Below, piece after piece: positions 2,060 through 57,869 of a stretch of DNA of 64,000 bases. The notes under the pieces are model-generated. The model was not told where the DNA came from. It saw only the letters and a list, made by a program, of their open reading frames with translations, and made no database searches. The DNA comes from an uncultured Bacteroidales bacterium (lineage in GTDB: Bacteria > Bacteroidota > Bacteroidia > Bacteroidales > F082). The stretch's first letter is position 1. Each line of letters begins with the position of its first letter. The stretch is taken from the NCBI GenBank assembly GCA_900318085.1, contig ONJF01000011.1, positions 1 through 64,000 on the forward strand, written 5' to 3'. A program made the position numbers and the translations under genes.

Positions 2060-3895
2060 TTATTGTTTTGTTTCTGTTGCACACACATACATCAGGCAAT
2101 TCCGACAGTCGAATTCGAGACGGAAGGTATGGTTCCCGTTACGGATAAACAAAGGCGTTGCCTTCTGTCCAGTTTCCTTGCTGCACATCCCGTTGGCATA
2201 GCGGATGCAATGGTGGCAGGTCATCAGATGGTCAGGGATGGCGTCGGGGTCTGTAGGGACGCACCGCGTGCGTCCGCATTGCGTGCGTCCGCATTGCGTG
2301 CGTCCGTTTTCATCGACGGACACATTCGATGTGTCCGTACAGCGAATTTCGCGGTTTTCACGATGATTTTCAATTAATGCATTAATCAGTTTTTCAACCA
2401 GTTGGCGTTTCATCTCACCGATGACGGAGGCAGGGATGAGGCGCGGCTCTGTGAATTGCAATTCCAGATTGACGGGATTGAACACCGTGTCGCCCCATTG
2501 CAGGGCCTTTTTCCGGATGTTTTCCGTGGCCTTCTCGGGGTTGTTGGCCGTGATTTTTTCAGATTGAATGCTGGTAGAGACGCGATTAATCGCGTCTCTA
2601 CAAACAGCGACCATTTCATAACCAGTTCCTGTTTCCTTCAATATCAAATCAATGTCAATCTTGCGGTTACCTGCCGAGGCATCCACCTGTTTTTGCCATT
2701 CGATGTCATAATTGCGGTAGATTTTCGCACCGCGATGTGCACCATGGGGTCTGTTTGTAGAGACGGTGTGCACACCGTCTCTACCTATATTCACGACATC
2801 AGCACGAAGGCCTATCAATTCATTGTCCTGGTTCAGGAAACACAGGCCGTCGCCGTTATGTAGAGACGTGCCATGGCGCGTCTCTACCTTAATTTCCATG
2901 CGTAGCGGGTTGCACCACACGACCTCGCCGATGTATTCGCCCATCGATTTAGGCGTGAAAGGAGCATCAATGCCCTTCTGCCGCCCGTTGATGAAGAAAT
3001 CGGTGAAACCCCGGTTGAACGATTTCTCCGGATTGACCTCAAATGTGGAGACGCGGCGCGCCACGTCTCTACAAGAGGATTGTATATATTCCGGGCGGCG
3101 TTCGAAAATTTCATCCAGTTTCTGACGATAGAACGCCGTCACATTCTTCACATAATCAGCGTCTTTCATCCTGCCTTCAATCTTGAAGCTGGTAATGCCT
3201 GCATCCATCAGTTCTTCCAGATGTGCGCTATTGTTAAGGTCTTTCAAGCAGAGCAAATGCCTGTTTTTGATCAGCACATTGCCATCTCCGTCAAGAAGGT
3301 CATAGGGGAGACGGCAAGGCTGGGCGCAGGCACCACGGTTGGCACTGCGGTTGCCTATATATTGGCTCATATAGCACTGCCCGCTGTGGCTGACACACAA
3401 AGCACCATGGACGAAGAATTCCAGCGGCACGGTGGTCTTCTCCCGAATCTCGCGAATCTGTTTAAGGCTCAACTCACGACCCAAAACAACTTGACTAAAC
3501 CCCAATTGTTCAAGAAGTTGCACCTTCTCCACGGTCAAGTTGTCGCATTGCGTGCTGGCATGAAGCGGGATGGGGGGCAAGTCGAGTTGCAGGAGCTGCA
3601 TGTCCTGCACGATCAGTGCATCGACACCGACGTTCCAGCAGTCGTAAACCAGCTGTCGGGCGCGCTCTAACTCATTCTCATATAACAAAGTGTTGAGCGT
3701 GACATAGACCTTGGCGTCAAACAAAGCGGCATGACGACAAAGGCGTTCGATGTCGGCCATGCTATTAGAGGCCTTCTCGCGTGCTCCAAAAGAGGGTCCG
3801 CCGATATAGACGGCATCGGCGCCATGATTAATGGCCGCCATACCCACCTCGGCATCCTTGGCGGGTGAAAGCAGTTCTATCTTCTTCACATTCAT
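2060..3895 (-). CDS. rlhA: U32 family protein, RlhA-like (23S rRNA hydroxylation), with repeat insertions
   Basis: A 611-residue U32 'peptidase' family protein. The region HGALCVSHSGQCYMSQ to RGACAQPC and the later SFKIEGRMKD block match E. coli RlhA (YdcP), which is needed for hydroxylation of a cytidine in 23S rRNA; conserved cysteines suggest the Fe-S-type centre of this group. The start ATG lies 4 bp past a TAATTTTG -7 element, so the message may have almost no leader. Odd: the frame contains four 28-bp palindromes at about residues 275-284, 336-345, 371-380 and 432-441 and an 88-bp compound repeat at about 519-548. They encode peptides such as CRDVARRVST and CGRTQCGRT, and no stop results. 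Function is probably kept because the frame is intact, but this is inference. Confidence 0.85.
   Translation of the reverse strand: MNVKKIELLSPAKDAEVGMAAINHGADAVYIGGPSFGAREKASNSMADIERLCRHAALFDAKVYVTLNTLLYENELERARQLVYDCWNVGVDALIVQDMQLLQLDLPPIPLHASTQCDNLTVEKVQLLEQLGFSQVVLGRELSLKQIREIREKTTVPLEFFVHGALCVSHSGQCYMSQYIGNRSANRGACAQPCRLPYDLLDGDGNVLIKNRHLLCLKDLNNSAHLEELMDAGITSFKIEGRMKDADYVKNVTAFYRQKLDEIFERRPEYIQSSCRDVARRVSTFEVNPEKSFNRGFTDFFINGRQKGIDAPFTPKSMGEYIGEVVWCNPLRMEIKVETRHGTSLHNGDGLCFLNQDNELIGLRADVVNIGRDGVHTVSTNRPHGAHRGAKIYRNYDIEWQKQVDASAGNRKIDIDLILKETGTGYEMVAVCRDAINRVSTSIQSEKITANNPEKATENIRKKALQWGDTVFNPVNLELQFTEPRLIPASVIGEMKRQLVEKLINALIENHRENREIRCTDTSNVSVDENGRTQCGRTQCGRTRCVPTDPDAIPDHLMTCHHCIRYANGMCSKETGQKATPLFIRNGNHTFRLEFDCRNCLMYVCATETKQ
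2253..2340. repeat. 88-bp compound palindromic repeat inside the RlhA-like gene
   Basis: The palindrome GGACGCAC-CGC-GTGCGTCC is followed by two tandem copies of GCATTGCGTGCGTCC and by a second palindrome CGGACACAT-TCG-ATGTGTCCG. Outer ends read GTAGGGACG and GTCCGTAC. It is read in frame as an insertion including the peptide CGRTQCGRTRC. Confidence 0.85.
2574..2601. repeat. 28-bp palindrome (GTAGAGACG family), copy 2, in frame in the RlhA-like gene
   Basis: Perfect palindrome with centre CGATTAATCG. In the host gene it is read as CRDAINRVST. Confidence 0.9.
2757..2784. repeat. 28-bp palindrome (GTAGAGACG family), copy 3, in frame in the RlhA-like gene
   Basis: Perfect palindrome with centre GGTGTGCACACC. 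It is read in the same phase as copy 2, giving GRDGVHTVST. Confidence 0.9.
2860..2887. repeat. 28-bp palindrome (GTAGAGACG family), copy 4, in frame in the RlhA-like gene
   Basis: Arms GTAGAGACG and CGTCTCTAC around TGCCATGGCG. It is read in a different phase from the other copies, giving VETRHGTSLH. Confidence 0.9.
3045..3072. repeat. 28-bp palindrome (GTAGAGACG family), copy 5, in frame in the RlhA-like gene
   Basis: Arms GTGGAGACG and CGTCTCTAC around a CGGCGCGCCA centre. Read as CRDVARRVST. Confidence 0.9.
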
Positions 3896-3907: not shown

Positions 3908-3938
3908 CGCTTTTTCAGTTCGATGCCGATAAATTTCG

Positions 3939-3946
3939 TATTTTTG
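3939..3946 (+). promoter_or_regulatory. Bacteroidota -7 element for the acyltransferase locus
   Basis: TATTTTTG, 21 bp before the ATG at 3968. It makes the upstream in-frame ATG at 3923 unusable as a start and marks the head of the plus-strand locus. Confidence 0.65.
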
Positions 3947-3967
3947 CAAGTTATTTTCATCCTGAAA

Positions 3968-5245
3968 ATGAAAAGTCGCATCCTAGTCATATTGTTCGCT
4001 TTGACGGCAGTCCTGCTTTTTGCCTCGATGCTCCAGCAGGCGACGGGGATGTTCCATTTCAAGGAACTGGACGGTGTGACCAAGGAGACACCCAAGCCAC
4101 AAGCCTCCTTCGCCAGTTTCTGCGACCGCAGCCTGCAAGACTCGACCGAGGCCTACCTCAAGCAACACTACGGCTTCCGCGAGCCATTGACCCGACTCCA
4201 CAACCAAACGCGATGGGCACTTTTCCGCTATTCCCAAGTGGAAGAAGACCAGCGCATCACAATTACATCCGACAACTGGATTTATGAGCCTTGGTCGGTA
4301 GAAGAATACTACCAAAGCCTTGCCTATCATCACGGTTACGACTCGGCGGCCATGGCAGCGGTTTTCGAGGCCGAAGCCCAGCGACTGCTGGAACTTCAAG
4401 AGTTTTTGAAACCTTATGGCACACATCTATTCGTGGCTCTTCTTCCCGGCAAAGAACAGATCTGTCCCGAGCACCTGCCCAAAAACGACCGCTATTTCGA
4501 GAAAAAGCAAATCACGGCCTATGACTTTTATGCCAAGCGATTAGAAGAATTGGGTGTCAACTACATCGACTTCAGCGCATGGTTTCAGCAACTGAAAGGC
4601 CACACTGACTACCCATTGTTCCCTCAAACAGGCACCCACTGGAGCAACCTCGCTGCCATTCATAGCGCCGACACCCTCATACGCTATATGGAACACCTAA
4701 GCGATTCTAATATGGTCAACATATTGATTGACAACACATTCAAGAGAACGCTTAAGCCTGATGCCGACCTCGAGAGCCTGATGAACCTCATTTGGCCTTT
4801 GCAGAAAGAGCCCAACTATTTGGCAGCAACAGCCTACGACTATGACACTACCGCTTGGCGACCACGGTTGCTTACCATCGGCGACTCGTTCTACTGGAAC
4901 ATCCTCAACTACACACCCGTAAGGGATGTTTTTGAAAGCGTCCCCTACTGGTATTATTTCAGCACCGCCTATTTTGATGATGAAGACCTTAAAGTGGCCC
5001 ATAAAATCAGCGACTTGGACGTGCTTCAAGAAGTCATCGATGCCGATTTCGTGATGCTCGCCTACTCCACCGTGTCGCTCTACAAAATGAGCAACGGGTT
5101 CAGCGAGACATTGTTGCAAGAGATTAAACAAAAACAAAGCAAAATAAATAATAAACACGAGACTGCGGGACGGCGAGACGGCGAGACGGTTCAGGGACCT
5201 TGTCCCGAAGTCCCGCGTCCCGAAGTCCCGAAGTCAAAAAACTAA
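3968..5245 (+). CDS. AlgX/DHHW-like SGNH-fold membrane-anchored protein, paralog 1
   Basis: 425 residues: an N-terminal signal anchor (about 1-24), then an envelope domain with the family motif HYGFREPLTRLHNQ, a THW motif (His224) and IGDSF (Ser307). AlgJ/AlgX-type proteins take part in O-acetylation of exported polysaccharide together with an MBOAT partner, here the gene directly downstream. The His-to-Ser spacing (83) is near-constant in all six paralogs. The Asp that precedes His by two positions in AlgX is Gly here. The start is set by the promoter at 3939. The last ~28 residues (from HETAGRRDGE) are encoded by an inserted inverted repeat and are unlikely to be functional. Unlike its paralogs it lacks the C-terminal helical module. 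Confidence 0.8.
   Translation: MKSRILVILFALTAVLLFASMLQQATGMFHFKELDGVTKETPKPQASFASFCDRSLQDSTEAYLKQHYGFREPLTRLHNQTRWALFRYSQVEEDQRITITSDNWIYEPWSVEEYYQSLAYHHGYDSAAMAAVFEAEAQRLLELQEFLKPYGTHLFVALLPGKEQICPEHLPKNDRYFEKKQITAYDFYAKRLEELGVNYIDFSAWFQQLKGHTDYPLFPQTGTHWSNLAAIHSADTLIRYMEHLSDSNMVNILIDNTFKRTLKPDADLESLMNLIWPLQKEPNYLAATAYDYDTTAWRPRLLTIGDSFYWNILNYTPVRDVFESVPYWYYFSTAYFDDEDLKVAHKISDLDVLQEVIDADFVMLAYSTVSLYKMSNGFSETLLQEIKQKQSKINNKHETAGRRDGETVQGPCPEVPRPEVPKSKN
5161..5235. repeat. Inverted repeat forming the 3' end of AlgX-like paralog 1
   Basis: Left part has CGGGACGGCGAGACGG with GGCGAGACG doubled; right part has CTTGTCCCGAAGTCCCGCG and TCCCGAAGTCCCGAAGTC. GCGGGAC pairs with GTCCCGC. It is read in frame as a proline- and charge-rich tail. 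Confidence 0.75.
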
Positions 5246-6772: not shown

Positions 6773-6906
6773 GTCATGGCAGACAAGGATCCGCCATCTC
6801 CTGCGCAAGAAGGATTACCTTTGCGTTCAGGAGATTGCGGATCAAGTCCGCAATGACTCCGCGGGTCAATCGCGGTTCTGAGACTGCGATGAAGCCCGCA
6901 ATGACG
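6773..6906. repeat. Compound inverted repeat in the MBOAT1-paralog 2 spacer
   Basis: GTCATGGCAGACAAGGATCC at the left and several arms of the type GGAGATTGCGGATCAAGTC / CCGCAATGAC at the right form multiple hairpins. The same family is present at 16776-16862 and 46027-46133. It fills most of the 227-bp gap; no gene is seen there. Confidence 0.75.
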
Positions 6907-6934
6907 GCTTGGTCTTCTTTTGGACAGTAAGAGC

Positions 6935-8683
6935 ATGAGAAAAAAGCACATATATGATCTCGTACTTTTCAGCATCTTGATGGTGCTGCTCTTCCTGCCT
7001 TTGCTGCAAGCCCATGTCTTGCACATCCCCCTGAAACCCTTGAATGGCGTTACTGTGGAGACAGAACAACCCAAATTCAACCTTGTCTCCTATCGTTCAG
7101 GCGATTACGCCAAACAAGAAGAGGCCTATGTGGGCGAACATTTCGGCTTCCGCGAACCCGTCATTCGACTTTATAACCAATATCTTTGGAGCTGCTACAG
7201 GAAAACCTATGCCCACGACGTAGTGGCGGGCAAACAAGGCTGGCTCTACACGCCCGAGAGCGTCAGCGACTACTACGGCAACGAATTGCTCCGTTGGCAA
7301 CCCTCACCCGAAGAGGCTCGACAGCACTTCGACCGCGAAATCAGATACATGAATCGTGTACGCACCATCCTCAAGGAATACGACGTGGAGATGCTGGCCT
7401 TCATCGCGCCCGAAAAGAGTTTTCTCTACCCCGAGTATCTTCCTGAACGCGAACACAATACGAACACCTTCAATGCCAGTGAATACTTTTTGGAAAAATT
7501 CAAGGAGACGGGATTTCCTTGCATTGACATGACGGGCTGGTTCGGGCAGATGAAAGACACGGTCAGCTATCCGCTGATACCTCAGACAGGCGCCCACTGG
7601 GTCTTTCCTGCCGTGTATGCCGCCGACTCATTGTTTCGCTTCATGGGCGACCTGAAAGGCGAGGAACTGCCCACACTTCACATCGGTACATTGCACGAGA
7701 GCGACAACCACGGTGCCGACAACGACTTGGAAAAACTGCTCAACCTAGCGCTACCCATCCGAAAACGCCAAGGCTACAGTCCCATCGCAGATGTCACGGT
7801 GGAAAGCGGTCCGAACAGCGTCAAACCCAAAGTACTCTTCATCGGCAACTCCTTTATGTGGGGCATAGTCAACCAAGTGCCGATGAAGGACGTATTTGAT
7901 GAAGTGGAGTTTTGGTATTATTTCTCTACCGCCTATACTGGCGATCCGCTGATGCCAAATGGCAATGTCGTCGACCTCAACCTGTTAGAGAAAATGCTTG
8001 ATTTCGACTACATCGTATGGTTCACCACGGGCAACCAATTGAACAAGGGCACCAACAACTTTGCCAATTCGGTCATCCTCACCTTTGGCATCAACGACAG
8101 TCTCCGCTGGGCATATATTCGCCGAATTGCCGACACGATAACGATTGGCGACGAGGAACACGTCTCCACAAATATTGACAGCATCCGCCTCTATAAAGCC
8201 AGCGCCATCCTCAACCTTCACCCCGAACTTATCCCCGAACTCAACTGCTATAACCTGACCACCCAAAACAGCGACATTCCCTACGCCAAGGTCATCAAGG
8301 ACATCCGCAAAGACAGCACCTGGATGGCCGCCATGGAGGCACAGGCGTTTTTACGCTCCGCAACGATAGACCAGATGCTCCATGCCGAAGTGGACCGCAT
8401 CAAGGCGGGCAAGCCGCTCTACAAAGACCAAATTGATGAAATCCAGTTTTCACTGCGATGCCAAGAGGAAGTCAAAGAGCGGATGATTAGGCTGTCAAAC
8501 AGCGAAAAACTGATGCCCATCATCAGGGAGAAAGCCGAAAAATACCACAAAACACTTGAACAAGCCATTGAGGACGATGCCATTTGGATCACCCGTGAAA
8601 AATATGGCCTCGACCATTGCCGCCTCATCGACGACCCCGATGCACAAATCGTGCTTCCAACTACCCAAGACCCTGCACTATGA
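6935..8683 (+). CDS. AlgX/DHHW-like SGNH-fold membrane-anchored protein, paralog 2
   Basis: 582 residues with an N-terminal signal anchor, the motif HFGFREPVIRLYNQ, TGAHW (His221) and IGNSF (Ser306). After the SGNH-like domain there is a ~200-residue helical extension with two copies of a short module (near STWMAAMEAQA and EKAEKYHKTLEQAIEDDAIW) also seen in its paralogs and in the GH16-like protein. The ATG at 6935 is preferred to a TTG at 6920 because the hydrophobic segment then follows a short basic end. It is the first of two overlapping genes. A role in polysaccharide acylation is inferred from family and neighbours. Confidence 0.8.
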   Translation: MRKKHIYDLVLFSILMVLLFLPLLQAHVLHIPLKPLNGVTVETEQPKFNLVSYRSGDYAKQEEAYVGEHFGFREPVIRLYNQYLWSCYRKTYAHDVVAGKQGWLYTPESVSDYYGNELLRWQPSPEEARQHFDREIRYMNRVRTILKEYDVEMLAFIAPEKSFLYPEYLPEREHNTNTFNASEYFLEKFKETGFPCIDMTGWFGQMKDTVSYPLIPQTGAHWVFPAVYAADSLFRFMGDLKGEELPTLHIGTLHESDNHGADNDLEKLLNLALPIRKRQGYSPIADVTVESGPNSVKPKVLFIGNSFMWGIVNQVPMKDVFDEVEFWYYFSTAYTGDPLMPNGNVVDLNLLEKMLDFDYIVWFTTGNQLNKGTNNFANSVILTFGINDSLRWAYIRRIADTITIGDEEHVSTNIDSIRLYKASAILNLHPELIPELNCYNLTTQNSDIPYAKVIKDIRKDSTWMAAMEAQAFLRSATIDQMLHAEVDRIKAGKPLYKDQIDEIQFSLRCQEEVKERMIRLSNSEKLMPIIREKAEKYHKTLEQAIEDDAIWITREKYGLDHCRLIDDPDAQIVLPTTQDPAL

Positions 8684-22590: not shown

Positions 22591-22618
22591 GTAGAGACGT
22601 AGCGCGCTACGTCTCTAC
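22591..22618. repeat. 28-bp palindrome (GTAGAGACG family), copy 6
   Basis: Perfect palindrome with centre TAGCGCGCTA, between the DPP gene and the CotH promoter. Confidence 0.9.
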
Positions 22619-27627: not shown

Positions 27628-27676
27628 TGTGTTTAAATGTTTGGTTGTTAATGAATTGATTTGTTTATTATTGTTG

Positions 27677-27704
27677 TAGAGACGTGGCGCGCCGCGTCTC
27701 TACA
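27677..27704. repeat. 28-bp palindrome (GTAGAGACG family), copy 7
   Basis: Arms GTAGAGACG and CGTCTCTAC around TGGCGCGCCG, between prs and rplY. Confidence 0.9.
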
Positions 27705-39121: not shown

Positions 39122-40138
39122 ATGGCAGAGCAGATCCTACAGATAGAAAATGTTGACCCTAAAGAACTTCACGGACCCAACGACAAGTACTTAGAGTTGG
39201 TGAAGAGCATGTTCCCCAAGTTGAAAATCATTGCTCGCGGCGACTTCGTGAAAGTGATTGGCGATGACGAAGAGATAGAGTATTTCACCAACCGCTACGA
39301 GACCTTGATGGTGCAACTGGAGCGTTTCGGCAAGCTCACCGCACAGACCGTGGAAGATGTGATGATGGCCAGCACAGATAGTGAGTTGCAACAAAAGATG
39401 TCGGAGAGCGATGTGCTCGTATTTGGACGCAGCGGTGTGCCCGTCAAGGCCATCACCGCCAACCAAAAACGCATGGTGACGGCATCGGAGCAGAAGGACT
39501 TGGTTTTCGCCATCGGTCCTGCTGGTACGGGAAAGACCTACACCGCCGTGGCTTTGGCCGTCCGTGCCCTGAAAGCCAAACAGGTCAGAAGGATCATTTT
39601 GACCCGTCCTGCCGTCGAAGCCGACGAACATCTTGGTTTTCTCCCTGGCGACCTCAAGGACAAGCTCGACCCCTATCTACAGCCGCTTTATGACGCCTTG
39701 CGTGACATGATACCTGGCACCAAACTTGAGGGTTATCTCGAAGACCACACTATTGAAATTGCGCCGCTGGCCTTCATGCGCGGCCGCACCTTGGACCATG
39801 CCTTTGTCATCCTCGATGAGGCGCAGAACGCCACGCGCAGCCAGCTGAAGATGTTCCTCACCCGCATGGGACGCTCGGCAAAGTTCATCGTCACCGGCGA
39901 CATCACCCAAATCGACCTGCCGCCCAAGACGCCCTCGGGATTGCCCCAGGCCATGGAGGTGCTAAAAGATGTGAAAGGCATTGAATTCATCTATCTGGAT
40001 GACAAGGATGTGGTGAGACATAAATTGGTCACCGACATAATTAATGCCTATAAACGGCATAATGTAGAGACGCAAGATTTTGCCTCTCTTCCGACCGAAC
40101 AACAATTAAACGATTCAACAATCAACAATCAACAATAA
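39122..40138 (+). CDS. phoH: PhoH-family ATPase
   Basis: 338 residues. RecD-like ATPase with Walker [12 protein letters not shown] (near 135) and Walker [11 protein letters not shown] (near 225); family role is probably RNA-related and is not settled. It is followed 2 bp later by purC. The natural protein seems to end around IINAYKRH (near 314): the next residues, [11 protein letters not shown], come from a degenerate 28-bp palindrome, and the final STINNQQ from an AAC-rich repeat. Confidence 0.93.
40064..40091. repeat. 28-bp palindrome (GTAGAGACG family), copy 8, degenerate, in the phoH C-terminus
   Basis: Left arm GTAGAGACGCAA intact; right arm TTGCCTCTCTTC has two changes from the consensus. 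Read in frame as the phoH tail. Confidence 0.7.
40099..40138. repeat. AAC-rich repeat at the phoH 3' end
   Basis: ACAACAATTAAACGATTCAA followed by three CAAcAATCAA-type units. Its reverse complement resembles the spacer at 51977-52030. Confidence 0.5.
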
Positions 40139-50113: not shown

Positions 50114-50141
50114 GTGGAGACGGTGTGCACTCCGTCTCCAC
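50114..50141. repeat. 28-bp palindrome (GTAGAGACG family), copy 9
   Basis: Arms GTGGAGACG and CGTCTCCAC around GTGTGCACTC; both arms carry the same A-to-G / T-to-C compensating change, so pairing is kept. Confidence 0.88.
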
Positions 50142-50188: not shown

Positions 50189-50216
50189 GTAGAGACGTGG
50201 CGCGCCGCGTCTCTAC
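50189..50216. repeat. 28-bp palindrome (GTAGAGACG family), copy 10
   Basis: Identical in all 28 positions to copy 7 (27677-27704). It lies 9 bp beyond the glnS stop. Confidence 0.9.
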
Positions 50217-57416: not shown

Positions 57417-57869
57417 ATGAGCTACACAACATCATACTACCACATCGTCATCCGCACCTACCGCAGCGAACCCACCATCAACGAGGAACACGAGCGGGAG
57501 CTGTACGCCTACATCTATGGCATTGCAAAGAATCTGAAATGCCAAACCTACCGCATAGGCGGCATTGCCGACCATATACACATGTTCGTATCATTGCCGT
57601 CATACCTGTCGCTGGCCTCGTTCGTGCAGCGAGTGAAGACAGACAGCAGCAAGTGGCTGAAAGCAAGTCCACATTTCCCAGACTTTCGTGGCTGGGGACG
57701 AGAGTATGCCGGTTTTAGTTATAGCTTGCGCGACAAAGACATGATCGTAGGCTACATCAAGAAACAGAAGGAGCATCATCGTAAGAAGACTTTTGCCGAG
57801 GAGCATCGAGCTTTCCTGACGGAGAATGGGGTCAGTATCGACGAGCGATACTTCCTACGAGATGACTAG
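57417..57869 (+). CDS. REP-associated tyrosine transposase (RAYT, IS200-like Y1)
   Basis: 150 residues from ATG 57417 (the frame is open further upstream but that part is read from repeats). A Y1 HUH transposase: the metal-binding HUH motif is HIHMF (near 54), the nucleophile is probably the Tyr in VGYIKKQKEHH (near 116). RAYT proteins are single-copy domesticated relatives of IS200 TnpA that act on REP palindromes. Here the gene is flanked on both sides by two palindrome types, as expected. It should bind and cut single-stranded hairpins of that type. It appears intact. Confidence 0.9.
   Translation: MSYTTSYYHIVIRTYRSEPTINEEHERELYAYIYGIAKNLKCQTYRIGGIADHIHMFVSLPSYLSLASFVQRVKTDSSKWLKASPHFPDFRGWGREYAGFSYSLRDKDMIVGYIKKQKEHHRKKTFAEEHRAFLTENGVSIDERYFLRDD

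Follow-up and report, generated by a model that had tools for sequence, protein, structure and literature searches.

The Rickettsia palindromic elements (RPEs) are palindromic repeats that lie in frame in many unrelated genes, as set out in sections of two papers (PMC3733652, PMC6649704). The GTAG REPs and REPtrons (Di Nocera et al. 2013, PMC3733652), in the sections of that paper cited here, are 20–40 bp long, carry a GTAG end, occur in many copies of which some are intragenic, and form sub-families whose stems have alternative, mutually complementary residues; at about the same recB site, X. campestris and X. oryzae carry different REPs, and Bacteroidetes are named in these sections only for CGTC repeats. 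In the mitochondria of Nematomorpha, inverted repeats within translated genes are kept perfect, with arms of up to 142 bp that encode conserved residues, and template switching is among the mechanisms proposed by the authors in the part cited (PMC6649704). Arm homogenisation and spacer inversion are the signatures of template-switch mutation at inverted repeats in yeast genes (PMC8604942), and template switching has been proposed to keep RNA stems paired (PMC8794818), each in the cited part of the paper.

The family described here came to light in the window, the whole stretch of 64,000 nucleotides that was analysed, and has the form GTAGAGACG-N10-CGTCTCTAC, 28 bp in all with 9-bp arms. Like the RPEs, it is present in frame within protein-coding genes, but it does not belong to their sequence class: RPEs are longer, or CGTC-ended (in part PMC3733652), whereas the present element is 28 bp long with GTAG/CTAC ends. 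Intragenic palindromes of Rickettsia lose their repeat identity with time according to the cited part of PMC6649704, whereas here symmetry is kept while the cores differ, and many copies stay symmetric in dozens of MAGs. With the GTAG REPs the family shares a palindrome of 20–40 bp in many copies (28 bp, 78 exact copies), but GTAG, which is unpaired and at one end in the REPs of the cited sections (PMC3733652), is here paired with CTAC, both ends being alike, and no closely flanking Y1 gene was found. Unlike the Nematomorpha palindromes, the present ones are repeats scattered among loci and have a stock of cores in common. Both yeast signatures were observed here, whereas the exchange of a spacer with another locus is not described in the cited part of PMC8604942. 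Among the papers listed by searches of an open-access library, none was recognisable from its title and abstract start as an account of the GTAGAGACG/CGTCTCTAC element. We are inclined, cautiously, to regard these elements as resident REP-like palindromes that are kept symmetric by template switching and are sometimes overwritten in place by other copies.

The host gene and its five elements

The host of five elements, at 2060–3895 on the minus strand, is a U32 peptidase-like gene with DUF3656, a single open frame of 611 aa whose Pfam domains are PF01136 (E 1.7e-73) and PF12392 (E 8.2e-14). The combination of U32 and DUF3656 is the RlhA/YdcP architecture, and on that ground the gene is called RlhA/YdcP-like (rlhA below), a putative name. 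No NCBIfam profile reached its cut-off with the host protein, the best being TrhP with 164 of 534 bits, and no solved structure matched the 611-aa protein at E 0.01. The gene is under purifying selection, with dN/dS values of 0.066–0.092 in six of seven comparisons and saturation in the seventh, and the idea put forward earlier, that RPE-like elements have invaded a protein in frame, is supported.

The preliminary description had placed four 28-bp palindromes and one compound repeat in this one uninterrupted frame, and all five were found at those places. The S1 palindrome (3045–3072) has the plus-strand core CGGCGCGCCA, is read CRDVARRVST and shows a net gain of +9 bp against empty orthologues; one arm base varies, GTGGAGAC replacing GTAGAGAC on the plus strand. 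S2 (2860–2887) has the plus-strand core TGCCATGGCG and is read VETRHGTSL (net +12 bp), S3 (2757–2784) has the core GTGTGCACAC and is read GRDGVHTVST (net +15 bp), and S4 (2574–2601) has the core CGATTAATCG and is read CRDAINRVST. The two reading phases are as had been described, namely CRD/GRD..VST for the copies at 3045, 2757 and 2574 and VETR..TSL for that at 2860, and the third phase, read directly, would indeed hit TAG. The compound repeat S5 (2251–2341, with its start at about 2251–2253 and its end near 2340) is all in frame; in it a GGGACGCACC..GTGCGTCC palindrome is joined by two 15-bp repeats and by a GGACACATTCGATGTGTCC palindrome. When folded as single-stranded DNA, three of the four host-gene palindromes did better than all 200 shuffles, and S1 was equalled by three of 200. 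Given 92 copies in the genome, a 1.8-kb gene is expected by arithmetic to hold about 0.05 palindromes; the host gene has four. Its standing as a hot spot holds in that it takes elements repeatedly, but not in the sense of being unique, other genes holding in-frame copies as well.

A genus-wide family of palindromes

Besides the exact copies, the 3.24-Mb genome of the window (G000) contains 92 copies when up to one mismatch is allowed (≤1), and the reversed pattern was found 0 times in either search. Within the genus, 57 of 60 genomes are carriers and several further genes hold in-frame copies, and the earlier view of the element as unusual is not supported; the compared sequences are, by their titles and contig numbers, MAGs or other drafts, and the named relatives are mostly ruminant-gut Bacteroidales MAGs, including 'bacterium F082'. 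The commonest cores on either strand, among 75 own-genome copies sampled, are GTGTGCACAC (31), CGGCGCGCCA (13), CGCCATGGCA (8) and CGATTAATCG (7). The base immediately outside the palindrome is T in 68% of 150 pooled flanks, so that with its usual outer T..A the unit may measure some 30 bp, or ten codons. The five host-gene segments are best explained as members of a genus-wide stock of short symmetric palindromes together with a related compound repeat. The pattern is not confined to the genus, since 109 stretches of viral contigs (L256–L364) carry the same arms in 145 copies, 51 of which have self-complementary cores and 46 of which lie within open frames of at least 120 aa.

Further copies in the window lie at 219–246, a GCAGAGAC variant with the core CGATAAATCG beside an ABC transporter gene; at 22591–22618, with the core TAGCGCGCTA where the sister species G002 has TAGCACGCCA; at 40064–40091, with two mismatches to the pattern and the core CAAGATTTTG; at 50114–50141, a variant with GTGGAGAC.. 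arms; and at 50189–50216, 75 bp past the start of the preceding copy. At 27676–27703 the core is the reverse complement of the G002 core within flanks that are 97–99% identical, and the difference is, judged from the two sequences, an in-place flip. Contigs start or stop at, or ≤40 bases from, an element at G016:C157:1–28 and at the end of G000:C35, which suggests that assemblers stumble on it.

It is improbable that a RAYT/Y1 (IS200-like) transposase moves these REP-like hairpins into their sites, as has been proposed for GTAG REPs. The genome contains eight Y1_Tnp genes, and across 60 genomes the number of elements is correlated with that of Y1 genes (Spearman 0.44; 0.35 per Mb), but no palindrome lies within about 900 bp of the eight Y1 genes (loci of up to about 1.5 kb on each side), 17 genomes with no detected Y1 gene, some of them incomplete, carry 0–20 copies, and a clean hairpin insertion is not expected to remove target bases. 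On these grounds RAYT as the sole driver was rejected. The Y1 transposase gene of the window (57426–57767, PF01797) has no such palindrome in its 3.3-kb surroundings.

In-frame copies in other genes

The in-frame survey covered 61 copies, from the window and 40 fetched stretches, and at least 15 of these are in frame, four of them within rlhA. The other 11 are spread over ten genes that resemble a known family: an integrase, two genes with a T9SS-sorting tail, GH78, GH106, GH77-CBM20, Vsr and AlkZ-like genes, a BadF-type ATPase (below the cut-off) and an isomerase-like gene with two copies (also below the cut-off), for which 44 of 60 genomes gave a match. Six T9SS tails share coordinates with a copy, and in one of these the match is interrupted by a stop. 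A copy in the TAG phase would end its frame, and the way in which the ORFs were built therefore leaves such copies out.

In a separate observation, an open frame with the peptide PNHLHA (L140:3293–3781, minus strand) has a palindrome in frame directly behind it and gave no Pfam match; PNHLHA is reminiscent of the HUH motif of Y1 transposases. In the window, the end of the gene at 3923–5245 is built at 5150–5245 from another repeat (GGGACGGCGAGACGG ... CCCGAAGTCCCG), which is read into the C-terminus.

Replacement of target bases

Compared with close empty orthologues, the net gain at a filled site is about 6–21 bp, divisible by 3 in every case and in none equal to 28 bp, and target bases were therefore replaced. 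The length of 28 bp given earlier is correct for the palindromes themselves, but 28 is no multiple of 3 and is not the net change, and the simple insertion that had been assumed is not supported at the sites with empty orthologues. Net gains are +12 to +21 bp at the AlkZ site, +12 to +18 bp at the GH77 site and +9 bp at site A of the isomerase-like gene between the close relatives G018 and G064; when the window gene at 6920–8683 was compared with L365:11869, the palindrome was present only in G002, with a net +6 bp in the aligned stretch. Sites A and B of the isomerase-like gene gave other values, e.g. +36, +3 and −9, against more distant empty sequences. At the clean sites (rlhA S1–S3, AlkZ, GH77 and the isomerase-like gene) the 28-bp element took the place of 7–19 bp, net gains for which later trimming by selection could also account. 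With respect to a MITE-type target-site duplication, the empty orthologues show a loss of target bases, but all such sites are coding.

Short-patch double illegitimate recombination is a substitutive mechanism, and small dispersed repeats exist in cyanobacteria. Arm-like microhomology at the target was considered, as alignments suggested that VET/VST lay on similar old sequence, and was rejected: the fraction of random windows from the same gene that matched the arm as well as the best place in the empty target averaged 0.59 over six sites, being lower at AlkZ (0.27) and GH77 (0.33), with two of 42 anchors not found.

Occupancy of orthologous sites

The rlhA set comprised 48 in-genus sequences, 18 distant sequences of alignment A1 having been set aside, duplicate loci dropped (L077, L081, L086, L087, L108 and L120) and L009, L019, L029, L036, L037, L038, L095 and L096 also left out of the alignment; the fragmentary or distant GH77 loci L248, L250 and L252–L255 were left out of the counts of core classes, tree changes and flank comparisons. 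Core classes refer to 12 chosen core types with ≤2 mismatches. Orthologues were defined as frames running from stop to stop, a definition that may overlook broken copies; in six-frame searches, some matches of the other genes contained stops, and a short rlhA piece of G020 contained one.

S1 is filled in eight of the 48 rlhA sequences and S2 in three; because the scan allows several mismatches, a few rows counted as filled are doubtful, among them L101 at S1. Orthologues without S1 and S2 exist, as the preliminary description would have it, and these two elements are therefore derived. The recent arrival that it had assumed is not supported for S3 and S4, each of which has the element family in 20 of 48 sequences, in six and four core classes, respectively, and other repeats in further species, about 10 sequences being empty at S3. 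The AlkZ site is filled in 21 of 30 sequences (six core classes), the GH77 site in 16 of 24 (six), site A in 20 of 30 (ten) and site B in 25 of 30 (nine).

The occupants of S4 are, depending on the species, GTAGAGACG palindromes, GGACGC-type repeats, GTCATTGCGAGG-type repeats or several other repeat-like sequences; S3 and a spot near residue 205 of rlhA likewise hold different repeats in different species, and a GTCATTGCGAG-like sequence is found at the AlkZ site in three species. The GGACGC type occurs eight times and the GTCATTGCGAGG type five times in about 0.8 Mb of G002, and both 0 times after shuffling; the remaining types were judged repeat-like by eye and have little or no support in the available sequence. 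Repeated CGCAATGAC units, similar to the GTCATTGCGAGG repeat type, also form an intergenic tract of the window at 6838–6905. On the AlkZ tree presence changes three times (shuffles: mean 7.9, minimum 5), and presence carries a tree signal at AlkZ, site A and S4 and a weak one at S3; at GH77 (7 changes versus 6.9 shuffled) and site B (4 versus 4.7) there is none, and gain and loss are therefore not rare everywhere.

These occupants bear on the possibility of repeated independent insertion, in which the few permissive spots keep receiving mobile palindromes, older elements disappear by overwriting or loss, and survival is limited to in-frame outcomes, with no need for core exchange. We consider this account doubtful on the whole, and it remains a serious rival. 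It gains from the unrelated repeat-like sequences that occupy S3, S4, S5, the residue-205 spot and the AlkZ site across species, two of these repeat types being dispersed in G002, and from the S3 and S4 cores being common to close rlhA relatives, but it demands that every event remove the right number of target bases for the frame.

Core differences at fixed sites

Core exchange at fixed sites was absent from the preliminary description, and is clearest in genes other than its host gene. Between the sister species G000 and G002, the AlkZ-like gene has flanks that are 96.4% identical and arms that are 100% identical, around a core with 0% identity (0/10). Over 210 species pairs at AlkZ the mean identities are 0.849 for flanks, 0.910 for arms and 0.360 for the core, and over 105 pairs at GH77 they are 0.858, 0.910 and 0.391. 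The peptides of the core region that differ at a persisting site include VETVCTPSL, VETQNFASL and VETHGRASL.

Of 59 G002 copies examined, 43 could be matched to a G000 context and 39 were filled there. Among these 39 the core is the same at 22, has one or two differences at six, is flipped at two and is different at nine, two of the nine being dropped as low-identity paralogous matches; the reverse direction added one more different-core site (L149). Many G000 copies had no G002 context, and the survey is partial because the G002 genome, which has a listed completeness of 72%, was retrieved in part. In the window's gene S2–S4 are the same in both species, the S1 core is reverse-complemented in G002 (with still other cores in other species), and in the place of S5 G002 has another repeat type, a GTAGAGACG palindrome instead of the compound repeat. 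The element is missing at only four of the 43 matched sites, one of which holds another repeat, which speaks against repeated insertion.

Among pairs whose far flanks are ≥90% identical, the core class differs in 36 of 49 at AlkZ, 9 of 10 at GH77, 5 of 7 at site A and 2 of 6 at site B, and in 0 of 14 each at S3 and S4. Only some sites therefore show core exchange; at S3 and S4 it is slow or absent at short range. On the gene trees, the numbers of core changes against shuffled labels are 13 versus 12.6 at AlkZ, 7 versus 6.9 at S3, 16 versus 16.3 at site B and 8 versus 9.3 at GH77. The fractions of shuffles with as few changes are 0.83 (AlkZ), 0.52 (B), 1.0 (S3), 0.14 (GH77), 0.038 (A) and 0.002 (S4), so that a core tree signal is undetectable at AlkZ, GH77, B and S3, weak at A and clear at S4; its absence at S3 has little power because one core class dominates (13 of 20).

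The undetectable signal at AlkZ, GH77, B and S3 could be taken to mean that homologous recombination between species exchanges alleles and carries cores around. We regard this as very improbable: very similar far flanks go with different cores in the AlkZ and GH77 pairs given above, and long tracts therefore do not travel with the core at these sites, and such exchange offers no origin for the six or more core classes found at a single site.

The adjacent 9-bp flanks distinguish the sites further (the GH77 double element was left out of this comparison and kept in the tree-signal and close-pair core counts). At sites A and B they are about equally alike in different-core and same-core pairs, and junctions that stay alike across many core classes argue against repeated insertion. 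At AlkZ, GH77, S3 and S4, the 9 bp next to the element are less alike in different-core pairs, on one side or on both, so that replacement often extended beyond the core or the element was inserted anew; many core differences at these four sites come with such flank changes, as repeated insertion would have it, and re-insertion or larger patches play a part there.

Within one genome, 32 of 128 comparisons between sites gave matching cores against an expectation of 19.2 (p 0.003), a figure not corrected for shared ancestry, and the comparison of site core with the core stock of the genome, for CAAAATTTTG only, gave a mixed result (AlkZ p 0.018, GH77 p 0.44). A more far-reaching reading, which we hold to be rather unlikely, is that the shared arms provide docking sequences and that some unrecognised process, acting on single strands or by recombination, copies the 10-bp cores from one locus of a genome to another like exchangeable cassettes; conserved enzymes would then have short peptides rewritten with the reading frame unchanged.

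Symmetry of the arms and a possible mechanism

Arm positions showed 68 one-sided and 15 two-sided changes, and 12 of these 15 are complementary (shuffles: mean 1.7, maximum 8); 86 of 88 distinct 28-mers were used, two of the GH77 double element being left out. At site B (23 sequences) the covariation score is 0.463 versus 0.132 shuffled, with 0 of 500 shuffles as high. Four of five covariation measures exceed all 500 shuffles, the fifth, on further pair types, is reached by 22 of 500, and all five exceed all slid versions. At site B the close relatives G018 and G064 have arms that are altered in different ways yet self-complementary. Homogenised arms and inverted spacers, the latter at two of the 39 sites filled in both sister species, are both present, as at template-switch (quasi-palindrome) sites.

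In the reading that we prefer, that of resident palindromes maintained by template switching, palindromes would have become established, in frame, wherever many genes offer a permissive spot, by a substitutive entry from which only in-frame outcomes survive. Once resident, a palindrome would undergo replication template switching at its hairpin, by which arm changes are copied across and the core is flipped. At some sites the whole core would be overwritten from another genomic copy, through template switching or annealing via the shared 9-bp arms; we infer this step from template switching to exchange with another locus. The 9-bp arms are too short for ordinary RecA recombination, which counts against core overwriting. 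As all cores are 10 bp long, core exchange is frame-neutral, and the site therefore persists while the peptide changes.

At several sites symmetry is retained in orthologous codons while the core changes wholesale, which raises the testable question of what allows small palindromic repeats to be maintained and to spread when no transposase of their own is known. From the sequences compared, the family may offer conserved proteins a supply of new peptides that leaves the frame intact.

At a third site of the isomerase-like gene (L131), site C (L455–L473), many species have a non-palindromic segment, VE(T/M)MC(S/G)P, which is missing in more distant relatives, and G002 and G003 are palindromic at the same place. 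The segment looks like a decayed element, and may be an old copy that was taken over as ordinary protein sequence.
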